From a virus, in the IMG/VR virus record IMGVR_UViG_3300037189_010305, positions 1 through 29,208 of that record: a DNA stretch of 29,208 nucleotides; one strand, written 5' to 3'. The number at the start of each line of letters is the position of its first letter. Position 1 is the first letter of the stretch. The position numbers and the translations under genes are program-made. Shown here one piece after another: positions 21,358 to 28,694 of the stretch. A model generated the notes under the pieces. The model worked only from the letters and a program-made list of their open reading frames with translations. It was not told the DNA's origin and searched no databases.

Positions 21358-21837
21358 ATGACACAACCAAGACCTCCCCTTGAACTGAAAGCCTTCTATC
21401 GGGACCTGGTGATTGCCTGCGGCGGGCCGAAGCGCGCCGCCGAGATCACGGGCGGTCAGGCGTCTCACATCTCTGAAGCGATGGCGGCCCACCATCTGGA
21501 CCGCTGGCCGCGCATCGATCAGGTCGCCCTTCTCGAGGCCGACTGCGGGCAGCCCATCGTCACGGCGGCGCTTGCCGACCGCAGCGGCTACTCCCTGAAC
21601 TCCGTGACCGCGTCCGACGCGAACATCTCGCCGCTGGCCCACCTGCACCGCATCGTGTCGGAGGTGCGCGACGTCGAGTGCGGCATCCTCCATGCCATGC
21701 AGGACGGCCAGCTGACGGCCGCCGAGCGCCGCGACACCCGCCGCCAGGTGCAGGAAGCGATCGCCGCGCTCAACGCGCTGTGCGCCGACCTCATCGACAC
21801 CGCTGCCGTCGCGCGCGTCGTGAAGCCGGGGGCGTGA
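21358..21837 (+). CDS. CII-like regulatory protein
   Basis: This 159-residue protein has an N-terminal HTH-like part (LKAFYRDLVIACGGPKRAAE, ITGGQASHISEAM) of the kind annotated in alphaproteobacterial phages as CII-type or YdaS-like regulators, followed by helical segments to the end. The position (after cro and its terminator, first gene of the replication operon) matches lambda cII. It may activate establishment of lysogeny, but that is inferred from place. AGGAA lies seven bases before ATG 21358. A longer reading from 21109 crosses the terminator and is rejected. Confidence 0.65.
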   Translation: MTQPRPPLELKAFYRDLVIACGGPKRAAEITGGQASHISEAMAAHHLDRWPRIDQVALLEADCGQPIVTAALADRSGYSLNSVTASDANISPLAHLHRIVSEVRDVECGILHAMQDGQLTAAERRDTRRQVQEAIAALNALCADLIDTAAVARVVKPGA

Positions 21838-21839
21838 TC

Positions 21840-22640
21840 ATGTCTCAGCGCTACGGCGAATGGACGGCGGAGCACGACCAACTGCTGCTGTCGCTGCTCG
21901 GGGAGAATCTTTCCTCTGCACAGATCGCGGCCCGCTTCGGCAAGTCGCGGAGCGCCATTTGCGGTCGCGTTTACCGGCTGCGCGACAAGGGCCAGATCGA
22001 CGCGCCATGCGCGCTGCAAGGCACCAAGGCGGTGTCGCTGCGCGTGGGAAAGCCGCGCAGCCCGGGCCTTGCGCATGTGCCGCTGATCAAGGCGCGGCTC
22101 GAGCAGGGCGCCACCGACCGCGAGATCGCCTCCGAGATCGGTATCCACGCCGAGGACGTGCGCTATGCCCGGCGCGTGTCCGGGTTGCCCGGCACGATCC
22201 GCCCTGCGGGGCTGCCGGCCAATGCCGAGGATGTGACCCGCCTGGTGGCTGAGGGCAAGAGCGACCCGCAGATCGCCGACGAGCTGTCGATCACTGTTTG
22301 GCAGGCCCGCAACACCCGCCGCCGACTGAAGCTCGGCGCACCCGCAGCGCCGCAGCAGCGGCCGATTAGCAACATGGTGGCGGGTGATTCCGGAAAGAAG
22401 GTCGAGCGCTGTTTTACCGAGGGCTTCATGGGGCAGGCCTCGCGCCTGGACCTGGTTGACATGCCGCGCTCGGGCGCGTGCCGGTTCCCGATCGACCAGC
22501 CCGACGGCGCTGTGCGCTACTGCGGCGACCATGCGGGCGATGGCGAGAGCTACTGCGCGGACCATGCCGCGCGCTGCTACACGTCAGCGGTGCCGAGGAA
22601 GCCCCTGCTGCGCAATCACCTTTCCGCAGGGAGACGCTGA
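21840..22640 (+). CDS. GcrA-family regulator with extra HTH segments
   Basis: Residues 7-52 (WTAEHDQLLLSLLGENLSSA, then QIAARFGKSRSAICGRVYRL) match the N-terminal DNA-binding domain of GcrA. Residues about 201-247 (SRLDLVDM, CRFPI, VRYCGDHA, YCADHA) match its C-terminal domain, with the Cys/His pattern of that region. GcrA is the alphaproteobacterial cell-cycle regulator that binds methylated GANTC sites and sigma-70 RNA polymerase. Here a segment of about 100 residues with two further HTH-like units (TDREIASEIGIHAEDVRYAR; SDPQIADELSITVWQARNTR) separates the two ends, so the protein is about 90 residues longer than host GcrA. It probably alters transcription of phage or host promoters. ATG 21840 lies just after the CII-like stop. 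Confidence 0.8.
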   Translation: MSQRYGEWTAEHDQLLLSLLGENLSSAQIAARFGKSRSAICGRVYRLRDKGQIDAPCALQGTKAVSLRVGKPRSPGLAHVPLIKARLEQGATDREIASEIGIHAEDVRYARRVSGLPGTIRPAGLPANAEDVTRLVAEGKSDPQIADELSITVWQARNTRRRLKLGAPAAPQQRPISNMVAGDSGKKVERCFTEGFMGQASRLDLVDMPRSGACRFPIDQPDGAVRYCGDHAGDGESYCADHAARCYTSAVPRKPLLRNHLSAGRR

Positions 22641-22834
22641 TGCCGACTATTCACGACAAGCTGAAGCTGGCCTTCGTGCACCAACACCCGGATGACGGGC
22701 TCATGCTAACCGTAACAACGCGGAACGATCAGAAGTTTGACATGGTCCTGTCGCCGCAGGCAACGGCGATGCTGCTGGGGCAGCTTGCCGAGGGCCTGAA
22801 GGATGTGCTCAGGCCAATGAAGGTGCTGCCATGA
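22640..22834 (+). CDS. Small protein of unknown function (64 aa)
   Basis: ATG 22640 overlaps the preceding stop (TGATG), and the end overlaps the next start (ATGA at 22831-22834). The sequence (KLKLAFVHQHPDDGLMLTVT, FDMVLSPQATAMLLGQLAEG) suggests beta strands followed by an amphipathic helix. I do not recognise a family. It is an early-operon protein of unknown role. Confidence 0.65.
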   Translation: MPTIHDKLKLAFVHQHPDDGLMLTVTTRNDQKFDMVLSPQATAMLLGQLAEGLKDVLRPMKVLP

Positions 22835-23652
22835 GCGCGCTGCGACCTCTTGCCAGGCCAGACGTTATCATTGCGCCTCCAAAAAGCGCGGGACGACCGC
22901 CGCGTCTCGACTTCCTGCCGCTCTCGAAGCTTCGCATTGATGACGTCTATCAGCGCCCGATCGAGCGTCGCGGCATCGCAACCATCGTCAGGATCTGCAA
23001 CGAGTTCGACTGGAACCGGTTTTCGCCGCTGATCGTGGCCCCGGTGCCGGGAACCGACGTGTTCGCGATCATCGACGGGCAGCACCGAGCGACCGCCGCT
23101 TTGCTGCTTGGGTACGAAAAGGTGCCCTGTGCCATCGTCGAGGCCCATGCGCGAGACCAGGCGGCGATCTTCACGGCGGTGAATGGCAACGTCACACCGG
23201 TTTCCATCCTGCAGCTGTTCAAGGCGGCCCGCGCGGCTGGCACGGAATGGGCCGTGACGCTCGACCAGGTCTGCACTGCGGCGGGCCTCACGCCGCTGGT
23301 CTATCCCAAGCCCAAGAGCGCCATCAAGCCGTTCGAAACGATGGCGATCGGCACGCTCCGCCGCAACATCGCGCGCTTTGGCGCCAAGCTGGTCACCACG
23401 GCGTTGAGCCAGGCTGCGCGGCAGCCTGGCGCGGGTGAGCCCGGGTTCTGGAACTCGTACGCCGTCGACGGTGCGGTCATGAACTTTCGCCCTGCCCAGC
23501 AGAGACCGTCTGCAGATGGTGCCGCAGCCGCGACGCCGATGGCCGAGCGCATCCGCGCGCTCAAGGGCAGGGGCTACACGCGCTTCGCCATCCAGGCGTC
23601 GCTTGGTGTGAAGCTGGCCGACATCGAGGACGCGCTGAGAGGGGAGCCCTGA
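22831..23652 (+). CDS. ParB/sulfiredoxin-fold protein (DUF6551-like)
   Basis: This 273-residue protein has the ParB N-terminal nuclease-like fold: a first segment LPLSKLRIDDVYQRPIER (about 30-47), WNRFSPLIVAPV, then IIDGQHRATAALLLGYEKVP with the GQHR catalytic-like motif at about residues 84-87. The rest is helical and ends in a small HTH-like portion (YTRFAIQASLGVKLADIEDAL). Phage proteins of this type are usually regulators or nicking-type accessory proteins near replication genes rather than partition proteins. No ParA partner is present. It is coupled to both neighbours by overlaps. Confidence 0.8.
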   Translation: MSALRPLARPDVIIAPPKSAGRPPRLDFLPLSKLRIDDVYQRPIERRGIATIVRICNEFDWNRFSPLIVAPVPGTDVFAIIDGQHRATAALLLGYEKVPCAIVEAHARDQAAIFTAVNGNVTPVSILQLFKAARAAGTEWAVTLDQVCTAAGLTPLVYPKPKSAIKPFETMAIGTLRRNIARFGAKLVTTALSQAARQPGAGEPGFWNSYAVDGAVMNFRPAQQRPSADGAAAATPMAERIRALKGRGYTRFAIQASLGVKLADIEDALRGEP

Positions 23653-24493: not shown

Positions 24494-24768
24494 TGGTCCA
24501 TGCTGCAACCAGGACTGCCGACTATCAGGAGATCGTCGCGTGTCCCATCTTCCGCATGGCGTACGACGAGATCTGGCGGGGCGAGGGATCATCTGTAGAC
24601 CGCCGCTGGAGCGATGCCGAGCAGCTGTCCTATGAGCGCGGCCGGCAGTTCGGCATTTATGTACTGACCGAGGAAAAGCAGCGCGTGCCGTTGATGAAAG
24701 GCCCTCTCTGCCACCCGCGCGCATCGCTCCTGTTGATGATGGCCTTCATGTCGGGGGACGTGCTGTGA
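24493..24768 (+). CDS. Small protein of unknown function before primase (91 aa)
   Basis: The sequence (ADYQEIVACPIFRMAYDEIW, AEQLSYERGRQFGIYV) is helical and reads like a real small phage protein. The same type of protein with an RGRQFG motif precedes replication genes in other alphaproteobacterial phages. Its stop overlaps the primase start (GTGA at 24765-24768). No catalytic motif is seen. Confidence 0.65.
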   Translation: MVHAATRTADYQEIVACPIFRMAYDEIWRGEGSSVDRRWSDAEQLSYERGRQFGIYVLTEEKQRVPLMKGPLCHPRASLLLMMAFMSGDVL

Positions 24769-25973
24769 GCCATCGCGACCCGGCATTCGAGGAGTGGATC
24801 GAGGAGGCGCGCGGCATGCGGATCGAGCGCGCGCTGGACCTGGTCGCAGCCTCGCACGTGATCTCGCGCAAGACCCGATACGTCGGGCCGTGCCCCGGCT
24901 GCGGCGGCACCGACAGGTTCTCGCTGAACATCAAGAAGAACATCTTCTGGTGCCGCAAGAGTGCGGAGGGCGGTGATGCCATTGCCCTGGCGCGGCATGT
25001 TCATGGCTGCGAGTTCCTCGAGGCCGTCGAAATGCTGGCGGGGCGGCCCGCGCCAGGGCGCACGGTTTCCGAAGAGGAACGCCAGTCCCGTGCCAGGCGC
25101 GTGGCCGAGCTCGAGGCGAAGCGCAAGGCGGAGTCCGCGCGGATGGCGGCGGAGGAGAATGAATTCCGCCAGAAGGAGATCAGCCGGGCACGGAAGATCT
25201 GGAAGGAGGCCGGGCCGATCGACGGATCCATGGCCGAGCGATACCTGGCGCATCGCGGACTTCGCGCGCATCAGGGGGCGAAGCTGCGCGCGGCCTCCGA
25301 CCTTCCCTATTGGCACAACATCGATGGCGAGTGGAAGGTGATCCACTCCGGCCCTGCCATGGTGGCGGCGATCGTCGGCCGCAGCGGCGTGTTCCAGGGC
25401 TGCCATGTGACGTGGATCGAACCCGCTCTGGCCACCAAGTCCGGCAAGGCGGAGATCGTGCACCCGGTGACGGGCGAGCTGCTCGACGCAAAGAAGGTGC
25501 GGGGCTCGCAGAAGGGCGGGCACATCCACCTCGGCGGCCCGCCATTGCCCGTCGCCACGCGGCTGGTGGTGGGCGAGGGGATCGAGACGGTGCTTTCGGT
25601 TCAGTGCGTGGAGACGAGGGAGGGGCCCATGCCCTGGACGCTCTACTGGTCGAGCGTGAACCTCGGCAATCTCGGCGGGCGCAGTGCGGGCGCCGTGCCG
25701 CACCCGACTTTCACCCTGACCGATTCCCTTGGCCGCACCCGCGCCGTGCGCGTGCCGGGGCCGGACCCTGACTTTGCCGATGACGCCACGCTGGCGCCGC
25801 CGGACCATGTGGACAGCATCCTGCTGCTGGGAGATGGTGACAGCGACCGGCTTGCCACGCGCAACACGCTGCTGCGCTTTGCCAGGCGCTGGGCCATGCC
25901 GGGCCGCGTGATCCGCGCCGCCTGGGCGGATGAGGGCTGCGACTTCAACGACATGCTGCGAGGTGAAGCGTGA
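24765..25973 (+). CDS. DNA primase with zinc-binding and Toprim domains
   Basis: This 402-residue protein makes RNA primers for phage DNA synthesis. The N-terminal zinc region reads GPCPGCGGTDRFSLN and FWCRKSAEGGD (Cys43, Cys46, Cys63); the fourth Cys of the usual CxxC pair is Ser, as in part of this phage group. A charged helical linker (about 105-160) follows. The Toprim part has VVGEGIETVLS (Glu at about 270) and SILLLGDGDSD (about 353-361), the conserved acid residues for metal binding. It starts at GTG 24765 overlapping the previous stop, and its end overlaps the helicase GTG (25970). Primase plus helicase forms the replication core. Confidence 0.88.
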   Translation: MSHRDPAFEEWIEEARGMRIERALDLVAASHVISRKTRYVGPCPGCGGTDRFSLNIKKNIFWCRKSAEGGDAIALARHVHGCEFLEAVEMLAGRPAPGRTVSEEERQSRARRVAELEAKRKAESARMAAEENEFRQKEISRARKIWKEAGPIDGSMAERYLAHRGLRAHQGAKLRAASDLPYWHNIDGEWKVIHSGPAMVAAIVGRSGVFQGCHVTWIEPALATKSGKAEIVHPVTGELLDAKKVRGSQKGGHIHLGGPPLPVATRLVVGEGIETVLSVQCVETREGPMPWTLYWSSVNLGNLGGRSAGAVPHPTFTLTDSLGRTRAVRVPGPDPDFADDATLAPPDHVDSILLLGDGDSDRLATRNTLLRFARRWAMPGRVIRAAWADEGCDFNDMLRGEA

Positions 25974-27802
25974 GCGACCCCGAGGGAATCATCAAGGCGA
26001 TTGCGGACGCCGAGGAGCTTTCCTCCTCCGCCCATCAGCCTGAGGCAGCGGCTGCCGGTGGCCTGGAGCCTTCGGCTGGCGAATCGCCGCACGATGAGGC
26101 TGATGACCCCGGCGAGGTCTCGGCCGATGGCCTCAACATCAATTTCGACTTGCTGAAGGTCTGTGCCGCCGAGCCGCAGAACGATCTCGGCAACTCCCGC
26201 CGGCTGCGGCACCGCTATGGCACCGAGCTGATCCATGTGCAGAACGTAGGCTTCCATGCCTGGGACGGCCGGCGATGGGCCGAGGACGTCGACGGGCGGA
26301 AGACGAGGCCGTTCTGTCACACGACTGTCGAGGCCATCAAGTTCGAGCCGCTGGTGATCCTGCCCACCTCCGACGAGCAGGCGGAGATCGACAAGGCCGA
26401 GGATGCGATTACGCCGCTCGCGACAGCACGGCACCGGCTGGGCGAGCTGACATCGAAGGACGAGGAAGAGCGCCACCGGCTGCGGACCGAGATCGCAGCG
26501 CTCGAGGATGCCATCTCCCGCGGCCGCAAGGCGCAGGCGGCCGTGGCCGACCGAAGGGCCAGGCGGCGGCGATTCGCCGTGAGTTCCGGCAACTCCGGCA
26601 AGATCAGCGGCCTCCTGAACGAGACTGTCGCCTACATCTCCCGGCCTCTCGAGGATCTCGACAAGGACGCCCTCGCGCTCAACGTCTCGAACGGCACGCT
26701 GCGGTTCTCCGTCACCATGGTCGAGGATCTCGAATGCCCGGATCCCGACGTGAAGCGGCTGAAGCGCGTGGCGCATGTTCGCCTCGATGATCACAATCGC
26801 GACGACCTCATCACCAAGCTGGCCGACGTCGACTATCTGCCCAAGGCGCAGGCGCCGGTCTTCGAGGCATTCATCCGTGATGTCCTGCCGAACGAGGCCG
26901 TGCAGCATTTCGTGCAGCGCTACCTCGGCTATTGCCTCACCGCCCTGACCCGCGAGCAGGTCTTCGCACTGTTCCATGGCGAGGGCCGGAACGGCAAGTC
27001 GACGCTGGTCGATATCGTGGCAAAGATCCTTGCCGACTATTCGACCTCGGTGCCGATCTCGACGCTGGTCAATGACAGCCGCGGCGGCAAGGGCTCCGAG
27101 GCGACGCCTGACCTGGCCCGGCTGCCTGGCGCGCGCTTCGTGCGCACCGCGGAGCCGCGCGAGGGCCTCAGCTTTGACGAGAGCCTGATCAAGGGCCTCA
27201 CATCGGGCGAGCCCCTGCCGGTGCGCCGGCTGAACCAGGACTTCAACGACATCTATCCGACCTTCAAGCTGGCGATCTCGGTGAACCGCAAGCCGACCAT
27301 CCGCGGCAACGACGACGGCATCTGGCGGCGCGTGCTACTCGTGCCCTTCGACGTGCAGATCCCGATCGACAAGGTCGACAAGCAGCTCTCCGACAAGCTC
27401 TGGGCCGAGCGCTCAGGGATCCTCAACTGGCTGATCGCGGGCCTGACCGAATACCTCGAGCTCGGCGGCCTGAACCCTCCCGAGGAGGTCAGGGCCGCGA
27501 CGCAGGAGTATCGCGAGGAGAGCGATCTGATCGGCTCCTTCGTGCGCGCGGCCCTCGAGATCACCCGCGACGAGCTCGATCAGGTCGAGGCCGGGCGGCT
27601 CTATTCTGTCTTCGTCTCCTACTGCAAGCGGCAGGGCATCACGCCGATCAGCGGCACGACGTTCAACCGCCGCCTGCCAAAGGCCGCCGCGCAGTTCGGG
27701 TTCACCAAGGGCAAGTCTTCGATTTCCGTCTACTGCGGGTTGCGCGTCAGCGGCGAGTTCGCTGTCACCTCGCACACCCATGACGACAACATGGGAGGCT
27801 AG
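25970..27802 (+). CDS. SF3 / D5-type replicative helicase (phage P4-like)
   Basis: This 610-residue protein has an acidic, variable N-terminus (1-50), a D5-like N-terminal domain, a charged helical region (about 140-190) and the SF3 ATPase core: Walker A in FHGEGRNGKSTLVD (about 336-349), the following acid motif region (FVRTAEPREGLSFDESLIKG), and the sensor-type KLAISVNRKPTI with Asn (about 432-443). The C-terminus has a winged-helix-like part (YSVFVSYCKRQGITPIS). Such helicases load at an origin and unwind DNA with the primase. The start is GTG 25970 overlapping the primase stop. The last codons (NMGG, stop) are part of the first element of a repeat array that continues downstream. Confidence 0.88.
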   Translation: MSDPEGIIKAIADAEELSSSAHQPEAAAAGGLEPSAGESPHDEADDPGEVSADGLNINFDLLKVCAAEPQNDLGNSRRLRHRYGTELIHVQNVGFHAWDGRRWAEDVDGRKTRPFCHTTVEAIKFEPLVILPTSDEQAEIDKAEDAITPLATARHRLGELTSKDEEERHRLRTEIAALEDAISRGRKAQAAVADRRARRRRFAVSSGNSGKISGLLNETVAYISRPLEDLDKDALALNVSNGTLRFSVTMVEDLECPDPDVKRLKRVAHVRLDDHNRDDLITKLADVDYLPKAQAPVFEAFIRDVLPNEAVQHFVQRYLGYCLTALTREQVFALFHGEGRNGKSTLVDIVAKILADYSTSVPISTLVNDSRGGKGSEATPDLARLPGARFVRTAEPREGLSFDESLIKGLTSGEPLPVRRLNQDFNDIYPTFKLAISVNRKPTIRGNDDGIWRRVLLVPFDVQIPIDKVDKQLSDKLWAERSGILNWLIAGLTEYLELGGLNPPEEVRAATQEYREESDLIGSFVRAALEITRDELDQVEAGRLYSVFVSYCKRQGITPISGTTFNRRLPKAAAQFGFTKGKSSISVYCGLRVSGEFAVTSHTHDDNMGG

Positions 27803-27811
27803 GGAGGGTAG
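27791..27811 (+). repeat. Short repeat element, direct copy
   Basis: The GGGAGGCTAGGGAGGGTAG form spans the final codons and stop of the helicase gene. The inverted partner at 28098-28118 is identical in 20 of 21 positions. Confidence 0.85.
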
Positions 27812-27898
27812 ATGCGCCATACTCGGGGCTTGCCTCCCAAGGGGTGCGGGGAAAAGGCAAGGAAAATCAAGACCCGGCTTTCACGAATGGGAGGCTAG
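27812..27898 (+). CDS. Possible 28-residue basic peptide inside the repeat array
   Basis: ATG 27812 follows the GGGAGGGTAG of the first repeat, which offers a ribosome binding site, and the frame closes at the TAG of the long direct repeat. The peptide is basic (KGCGEKARKIKTRLSR) and ends in MGG, exactly as the helicase does, because both ends fall in the same repeat. Translation is uncertain. Confidence 0.25.
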   Translation: MRHTRGLPPKGCGEKARKIKTRLSRMGG

Positions 27899-27918
27899 GG
27901 AGCCTAGGGAGGGTAGAG
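27887..27918 (+). repeat. Long repeat element, direct copy
   Basis: This 32-bp element begins ATGGGAGGCTAGGGAG, then CC and TAGGGAGGGTAGAG. It matches the inverted copy at 27993-28024 at 30 of 32 positions, so the transcript could form a stem of about 30 bp with a 74-base loop. Confidence 0.85.
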
Positions 27919-27992
27919 TCGCGCGTTACACATAGAGAAGGAGTGCTGTGCCTGTGCCGAGACTGCCGTCGTATCTATTGAAAATCATTACA

Positions 27993-28024
27993 CTCTACCC
28001 TCCCTACACTCCCTAGCCTCCCAT
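27993..28024 (-). repeat. Long repeat element, inverted copy
   Basis: The minus strand reads ATGGGAGGCTAGGGAG, then TG and TAGGGAGGGTAGAG, differing from the direct copy only in two adjacent bases (TG for CC). It ends 25 bases before the start codon of the next gene and so lies in its leader. Confidence 0.85.
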
Positions 28025-28049
28025 AGGAAAAAAGATAGGAGATAAAACA

Positions 28050-28694
28050 ATGGCTTGTGAAACAGCTTTTATGGGAGGCAAGGCAAACGGCGGAAAGCTA
28101 CCCTCCCTAGCCTCCCACAAGCCCGATTTGAGGCGTGACATCACGGCTTGGGGCGCCCTGGTCTGGGCTTACGCCGATGAGATCGTGCTTGCGGCCTCAT
28201 CAATGGGTGGCTCGAACTTCCCGTCCCCTAGTCTGGCGATGAGCGGCCTCGGCCGGGAGCGGATAAGCGGCGGCCTGATCAATGGCTGGTATGAGCCGCA
28301 CCAGGATGCCCACACCATCAATGCGAAGCTGGCGGAATGGTTTGCTCACGATGGCTACGCTCTGTGCCAGGTCATGGCACATGCGGAGAGGCGCAAGCAG
28401 CTGCCGCGCGAGATCACCTTGCCGAGGGTGAAGGCGCTGCCTGTCTATGACCGGCAGGGCAATGTACTGATCGAGCGCCGCCGCGCGCACCGCAATGGCA
28501 GGGTCATCACCGAATATTGCGTGCTCGATTACGATGGCATCGATCACCGCGAGGCGGATCGCCGTGAGCAGGCTTGGCGCGACATGCACACGATGTTCCT
28601 CGCCTTCCTCGATGTGATGGAAGGCTTCGAGCTGAGCAAGTGGAAGGTCAAGGGCAGGGGCTTGACGAGCGTCTGCGAATCATTGACAAGGTAA
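28050..28694 (+). CDS. Early/late boundary protein of unknown function (214 aa)
   Basis: ATG 28050 follows TAGGAGA at a good distance. The first 30 residues contain two repeat elements of the array. The body (RRDITAWGALVWAYADEIVL, ERISGGLINGWYEPHQDAHT, AKLAEWFAHDGYALCQVMAHA, then YDRQGNVLIERRRAHRNG with a strand-rich end) is a mixed alpha/beta protein with no motif known to me. Genes in this place in lambdoid phages include late-gene activators and ArpU- or antiterminator-like proteins, so regulation of the packaging and structural genes is a possible role. That is inference only. Confidence 0.65.
   Translation: MACETAFMGGKANGGKLPSLASHKPDLRRDITAWGALVWAYADEIVLAASSMGGSNFPSPSLAMSGLGRERISGGLINGWYEPHQDAHTINAKLAEWFAHDGYALCQVMAHAERRKQLPREITLPRVKALPVYDRQGNVLIERRRAHRNGRVITEYCVLDYDGIDHREADRREQAWRDMHTMFLAFLDVMEGFELSKWKVKGRGLTSVCESLTR
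28098..28118 (-). repeat. Short repeat element, inverted copy
   Basis: The minus strand carries GGGAGGCTAGGGAGGGTAG inside codons 17-23 of the following gene (LPSLASH region). The element is therefore kept in both coding and non-coding sequence. Confidence 0.85.

Follow-up and report, generated by a model that had tools for sequence, protein, structure and literature searches.

The window analysed here, a virus record of 29,208 bases that may itself be a fragment, carries a replication module in which a primase-like gene is followed by the gene for a D5-type SF3 helicase. Genes for a GcrA-like regulator (21678-22640) and a ParB-like protein (22831-23652) lie upstream of this module. Directly 3' of the helicase gene lies an array with an extent of about 320 bp, in which a 9-bp unit (consensus GGGAGGSTA) occurs 12 times, grouped into six blocks. 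The blocks follow the order two units (+), one (-), three (+), then three (-), one (+), two (-), and all share one axis at position 27955. The genes and blocks of the locus are the following:

24765-25973, plus strand: primase-like gene (DUF7146, weak zinc-ribbon and Toprim matches), in a replication module shared with the helicase
25970-27802, plus strand: D5-type SF3 helicase gene, 610 aa (D5_N, DUF5906 ATPase and Pox_D5 region; Pfam and PHROG matches); proposed initiator
27527-27754, plus strand: C-terminal winged-helix part of the helicase, residues 520-595 (AlphaFold model); proposed reader of the 9-bp units
27793-27810, plus strand: B1, two 9-bp units (GGGAGGCTA GGGAGGGTA); overlaps the helicase stop codon
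27830-27838, minus strand: B2, one unit (GGGAGGCAA), inverted
27889-27915, plus strand: B3, three tandem units
27916-27995, no strand: central spacer with the dyad axis at ~27955; sequence not conserved; A+T 50%
27996-28022, minus strand: B4, three tandem units; mirror of B3
28023-28072, no strand: A+T-rich stretch between B4 and B5; candidate unwinding element
28073-28081, plus strand: B5, one unit; mirror of B2
28099-28116, minus strand: B6, two units; mirror of B1

All six elements that an earlier note on this DNA had reported were found, and the pair midpoints that it gave (27954.5, 27955.5 and 27955.5) were correct on recomputation. The same note described the elements as built on GGGAGGC, but bare GGGAGGC is not enriched in the window (10 observed versus 8 expected) and was dropped as the array word for that reason, the tandem 9-bp unit being the right description. 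Allowing at most one mismatch, GGGAGGSTAG has 12 matches in the 29-kb window, every one of them inside the array, compared with an expectation of 2.67 ± 1.66 and with a count of 12 reached in none of 100 shuffles. The A+T content rises to 67% over positions 28025-28070, between B4 and B5, against a window mean of 36%. The array does begin immediately at the end of the SF3 helicase gene, as had been claimed, since B1 holds the helicase stop codon (TAG, 27800-27802) and is thus half coding. The further claim that the outer elements lie within coding sequence on both sides applies to this half of B1, but for B5 and B6 it requires that ORF 28050 begin at its ATG, a start that a good AGGAG at 28037-28041 supports. 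In relatives, the next ORF usually starts 3' of B6.

An exact search of IMG/VR for two tandem units returned 15 contigs, many with identical block order and distances. The layout is also built from a different unit in Pseudanabaena phage Pan4, Synechococcus phage Sc-Yong805-1, Paracoccus phage Pthi1, and Rhizobium phage RR1-A. Because the layout thus occurred with other units in phages carrying other helicases of the family, 160 D5-helicase loci were collected by helicase similarity only, with repeats disregarded, and scanned for a frame of 2-..-3 mirrored as 3-..-2 composed of any 9-bp unit (a first de novo repeat count had been abandoned, being swamped by GC-rich noise, and a geometry-aware detector was used instead). 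Shuffled sequences and the remaining DNA of the loci served as controls, and the score threshold of 63 is the best score obtained among 191 shuffled loci. Within 2.8 kb 3' of the helicase gene, the layout scored above 63 in 94 of the 160 loci and at least 66 in 73 of them. By comparison, the rest of the DNA of these loci, 1.27 Mb, gave three marginal matches above 63 (maximum 64) and not one at 66 or higher. The element order and distances that the earlier note had proposed to look for after D5-type helicases are kept in these relatives, with a median of 152 bp between the helicase stop codon and the inner block. The other 66 helicase loci fall below the threshold, and at least 14 of these low scorers retain central inverted triple 9-bp units that score above every control. 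The more distant D5 helicase genes of Firmicutes and actinobacterial phages (L029, L031-L034, L036-L038, and L040) are followed by other repeats or by none, and not by the six-block layout. Additionally, the array is absent from all three plasmids that encode a D5 helicase and have no terminase genes in the fetched stretch (L207-L209), and is present in two circular records with terminase genes (Tritonibacter and Phaeobacter).

The frame of the array is nearly constant among the phages that carry it. In 51 clean arrays, B1 and B3 are 94-99 bp apart, B4 and B6 are 94-98 bp apart, the axes of the inner and outer pairs lie within 2 bp of each other, and the central gap mostly measures 68-100 bp; this tightness arises partly by selection, because near-symmetry was the criterion by which the 51 arrays were chosen (arms no more than 3 bp off 97, axes no more than 2 bp apart). 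The single block is either inverted at an offset of 35-37, as in the window, or set in the same direction at an offset of 29-31. When the 51 arrays are aligned, an A+T-rich stretch is seen from ~+20 to +240 to the right of the axis, with values mostly of 40-60% versus 30-36%. The unit itself differs between phages (e.g., GGGAGGATA, GGGACGCTA, GGGCCTGAC, GGACAGCTA, and others), and its classes include GGGAGGMTA, GGGACGSTA, GGGCYTGAN, and GGACAGCTA. Most arrays have units that start with GGG, and most of the difference between phages resides in positions 4-7. A recent inverted duplication would be recognized by similar spacers in the two arms, but, as the earlier note had observed for the window, the arm spacers do not match: only the blocks make up the inverted repeats. 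The relatives keep block order and distances while spacers and unit sequence vary from phage to phage, which upholds the reading of the locus as a protein-binding or origin array and not as a recent inverted duplication.

Symmetry of this kind may also belong to a nucleic acid structure, such that the blocks would form an RNA hairpin, a terminator, another transcript structure, or a DNA cruciform. The region taken as RNA folds far better than shuffles (z = -8.8), which is expected of any inverted repeat, and thermodynamic folding of an inverted repeat cannot tell an RNA function from a DNA function. In 21 non-redundant arrays, a deviation from the array consensus recurs in the mirror partner in 32% of cases versus 11-16% expected, a mild excess of the kind that base pairing might produce. 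On the other side, mirror partners mismatch in 17% of columns and display no excess of G-U (79, versus 102 A-C). Perfectly complementary inner blocks occur in only one of the 21 non-redundant arrays and perfect outer blocks in two, and the distances are fixed to a few bases over about 300 bp, a constancy for which a loop has no need. Rfam yielded no family at the gathering score (the matches returned were microRNA models far below threshold and were dismissed), and the sole terminator-like site is on the minus strand, opposite in direction to the flanking genes. A structural role for the blocks is judged very unlikely. As a separate observation, units facing each other across the axis resemble one another more than units that do not (51 arrays; 21 non-redundant), which could reflect either a symmetric complex or copying from arm to arm. 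This likeness somewhat exceeds what independent binding sites would require, and to that extent counts against the origin reading.

If the blocks are bound by a protein, the helicase encoded next to them is a natural candidate. Its AlphaFold model (pLDDT 88) places a winged helix at residues 520-595, with helices at 520-528, 541-555, and 562-576 and wing strands at 587-593, and its relatives in the PDB are ASFV C962R, SaPI5 Rep (7ola), and poxvirus D5/E5, with SaPI5 Rep among the nearest solved structures. Divergence of the unit profiles correlates with that of the C-terminal domains once the helicase core is controlled for (partial Mantel r = 0.19, p = 0.001), but not with that of the cores once the C-terminal domain is controlled for (partial Mantel -0.04), these correlations being modest and drawn from sequences that are related rather than independent. 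The C-terminal domain accounts for 93 of 527 alignment columns and contains 13 of the 25 columns most associated with unit class. The most strongly associated residues include 545, 559, 566, 567, 580, 586, and 587, of which 566 and 567 lie on the modelled recognition helix and 586-587 on the wing. The unit follows neither the primase, the next ORF (two families), HNH, TerS, nor the phrog_9 TerL, and the association with the C-terminal domain stays significant against each of these. In the 24 loci with a phrog_15 terminase, the values for the helicase domain (0.12) and for TerL (0.13) are both weak. Unit identity is thus linked statistically to the C-terminal winged-helix domain and not to the core, and comparison of the sequences suggests that the array-binding protein is most likely the helicase itself.

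Operators and centromeres, too, typically consist of clustered symmetric sites, so that the array could instead serve another phage protein, such as a late regulator encoded by the next gene, the ParB-like protein encoded in the window at 22831-23652, or some other regulator. The next gene is a NusG-like antiterminator in some relatives, which would suit an operator, but across the loci at least three families without sequence link supply this gene (phrog_9306, one unnamed, and the NusG-like phrog_6386) while the array is unchanged. The product of the next gene is disfavoured as the reader of the array because of this turnover, and the independence of the unit from the next gene points the same way; we regard binding by any of these proteins as having very little probability. 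The position after the array (e.g., L076:7446-8105 and L056:7123-7785), whose occupants show no sequence link between families, may be a place for late regulators.

Since the array sits between replication and packaging genes, and in many loci upstream of HNH and terminase genes, a role as a DNA-packaging site (cos or a terminase-binding region) was also considered. The record of Rhodobacter phage RcapNL favors this role in that its ends, which carry an annotation as cohesive overhangs, map between B4 and B5; however, these ends consist of an identical 26-nt stretch at both ends of the record, which could be an assembly overlap. The site type does not go with the terminase type: the layout and the unit classes are common to 34 loci with a large terminase of phrog_9 and 31 loci with one of the unrelated phrog_15, with AGG units in 13 and 14 and CCT units in 5 and 4, respectively. 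The unit shows a weak association with the phrog_15 TerL and does not follow HNH, TerS, or the phrog_9 TerL. A packaging function is consequently judged very unlikely. In RcapNL (L024:6838-7129 and L201:1-140), the six blocks are complete across the junction of the record ends, and the left arm, at 108 bp, is longer by about one helical turn.

Several known systems bear comparison with this array. The alpha protein of phage P4, in which primase and helicase of the P4 family are fused, binds iterons via its C-terminal domain, and P4 replication needs two separate iteron sites, ori and crr. Unlike this arrangement, a single cluster is present in the 29-kb window, in a record that may be a fragment. 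In the Sfi21-type origin of Streptococcus thermophilus phages, repeats occupy a non-coding segment after the primase/helicase gene, and the present locus is similar in carrying repeats behind a gene that belongs to that broad primase/helicase family. No six-block mirror array comparable to the present one was found after the primase of S. thermophilus phage P7632. Closer parallels are offered by staphylococcal pathogenicity island and cassette helicases: in PMC7581432 (citing Ubeda et al. 2007), SaPI Rep is described as recognizing, via its C-terminal domain, iterons directly downstream of its gene, and the C-terminal domain of SCCmec Cch2 recognizes three 5-nt iterons directly downstream of its gene, a putative origin (PMC7581432). 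The window likewise has a gene for a D5/SF3-type helicase with short repeats directly downstream; as to recognition by the C-terminal domain, the observations here are a statistical association and a modelled winged helix. Because of this precedent, and of the relatedness of the helicase to SaPI5 Rep, the array fits an iteron origin of a D5-type initiator helicase. The array differs from the SaPI and SCCmec sites in its 9-bp units, its six blocks, its mirror of 2-1-3 as 3-1-2, its length of about 320 bp, and its fixed distances, with Cch2 using three 5-nt iterons, and the primase is here encoded by a gene of its own, whose DnaG-type matches (zinc-ribbon, Toprim) are weak.

Together, the data strongly suggest an origin function, and we consider it likely that the array is a phage replication origin, or at least the site at which the replicative helicase assembles. 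We infer that helicase binding, assembly of a double ring, unwinding, and the start of replication take place at the array. The D5-type SF3 helicase would bind each 9-bp unit via its C-terminal winged helix, and the mirrored layout of 2-1-3 and 3-1-2 would put protein on either side of the central spacer, where two oppositely oriented helicase rings could be assembled. The A+T-rich stretch on the right side would then be opened, and forks would depart in both directions with the neighbouring primase. A two-hexamer assembly has been proposed for helicases of the SaPI Rep/SCCmec Cch2 kind (PMC7581432). On balance, we favor the broader proposal that the array defines a widespread class of origins, mostly of alphaproteobacterial phages, that is set by geometry alone: two self-loading D5 helicase rings would be positioned by the frame of twelve 9-bp iterons, while the iteron word and its winged-helix reader change together and keep each origin private.

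The earlier note had presented the locus as an origin of a new type, and its interpretation as a whole is partly supported. The novelty lies in the six-block geometry and in how widely it occurs, while the kind of mechanism, a D5 helicase with iterons downstream of its gene, is already known from SaPI and SCCmec (PMC7581432). No description of the six-block geometry was found in the open-licence literature searched. How self-loading D5/SF3 helicases recognize and open origins is poorly understood in phages, SaPIs, and SCCmec, as it is for the related enzymes of pox and ASF viruses. The fixed frame, with matched changes of word and domain, allows direct tests of subunit number, subunit position, and the reading of bases by residues, and the array offers a means of predicting origins in phage and prophage genomes that encode a D5-type helicase of this kind.

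Two further observations concern the margins of the distribution. Some loci with more distant helicases (L035:4510-4536, L119, L115, and L099) have only central inverted triple blocks, separated by a shorter gap and built from units such as CTGACGGGT or TTGGAAGGA, which are perhaps a simpler form of the six-block frame. A contig titled Bacillus subtilis SK6B4 (L129) carries a helicase of the alphaproteobacterial phage type together with GGGGCGCTA units, possibly as a contamination of that assembly.
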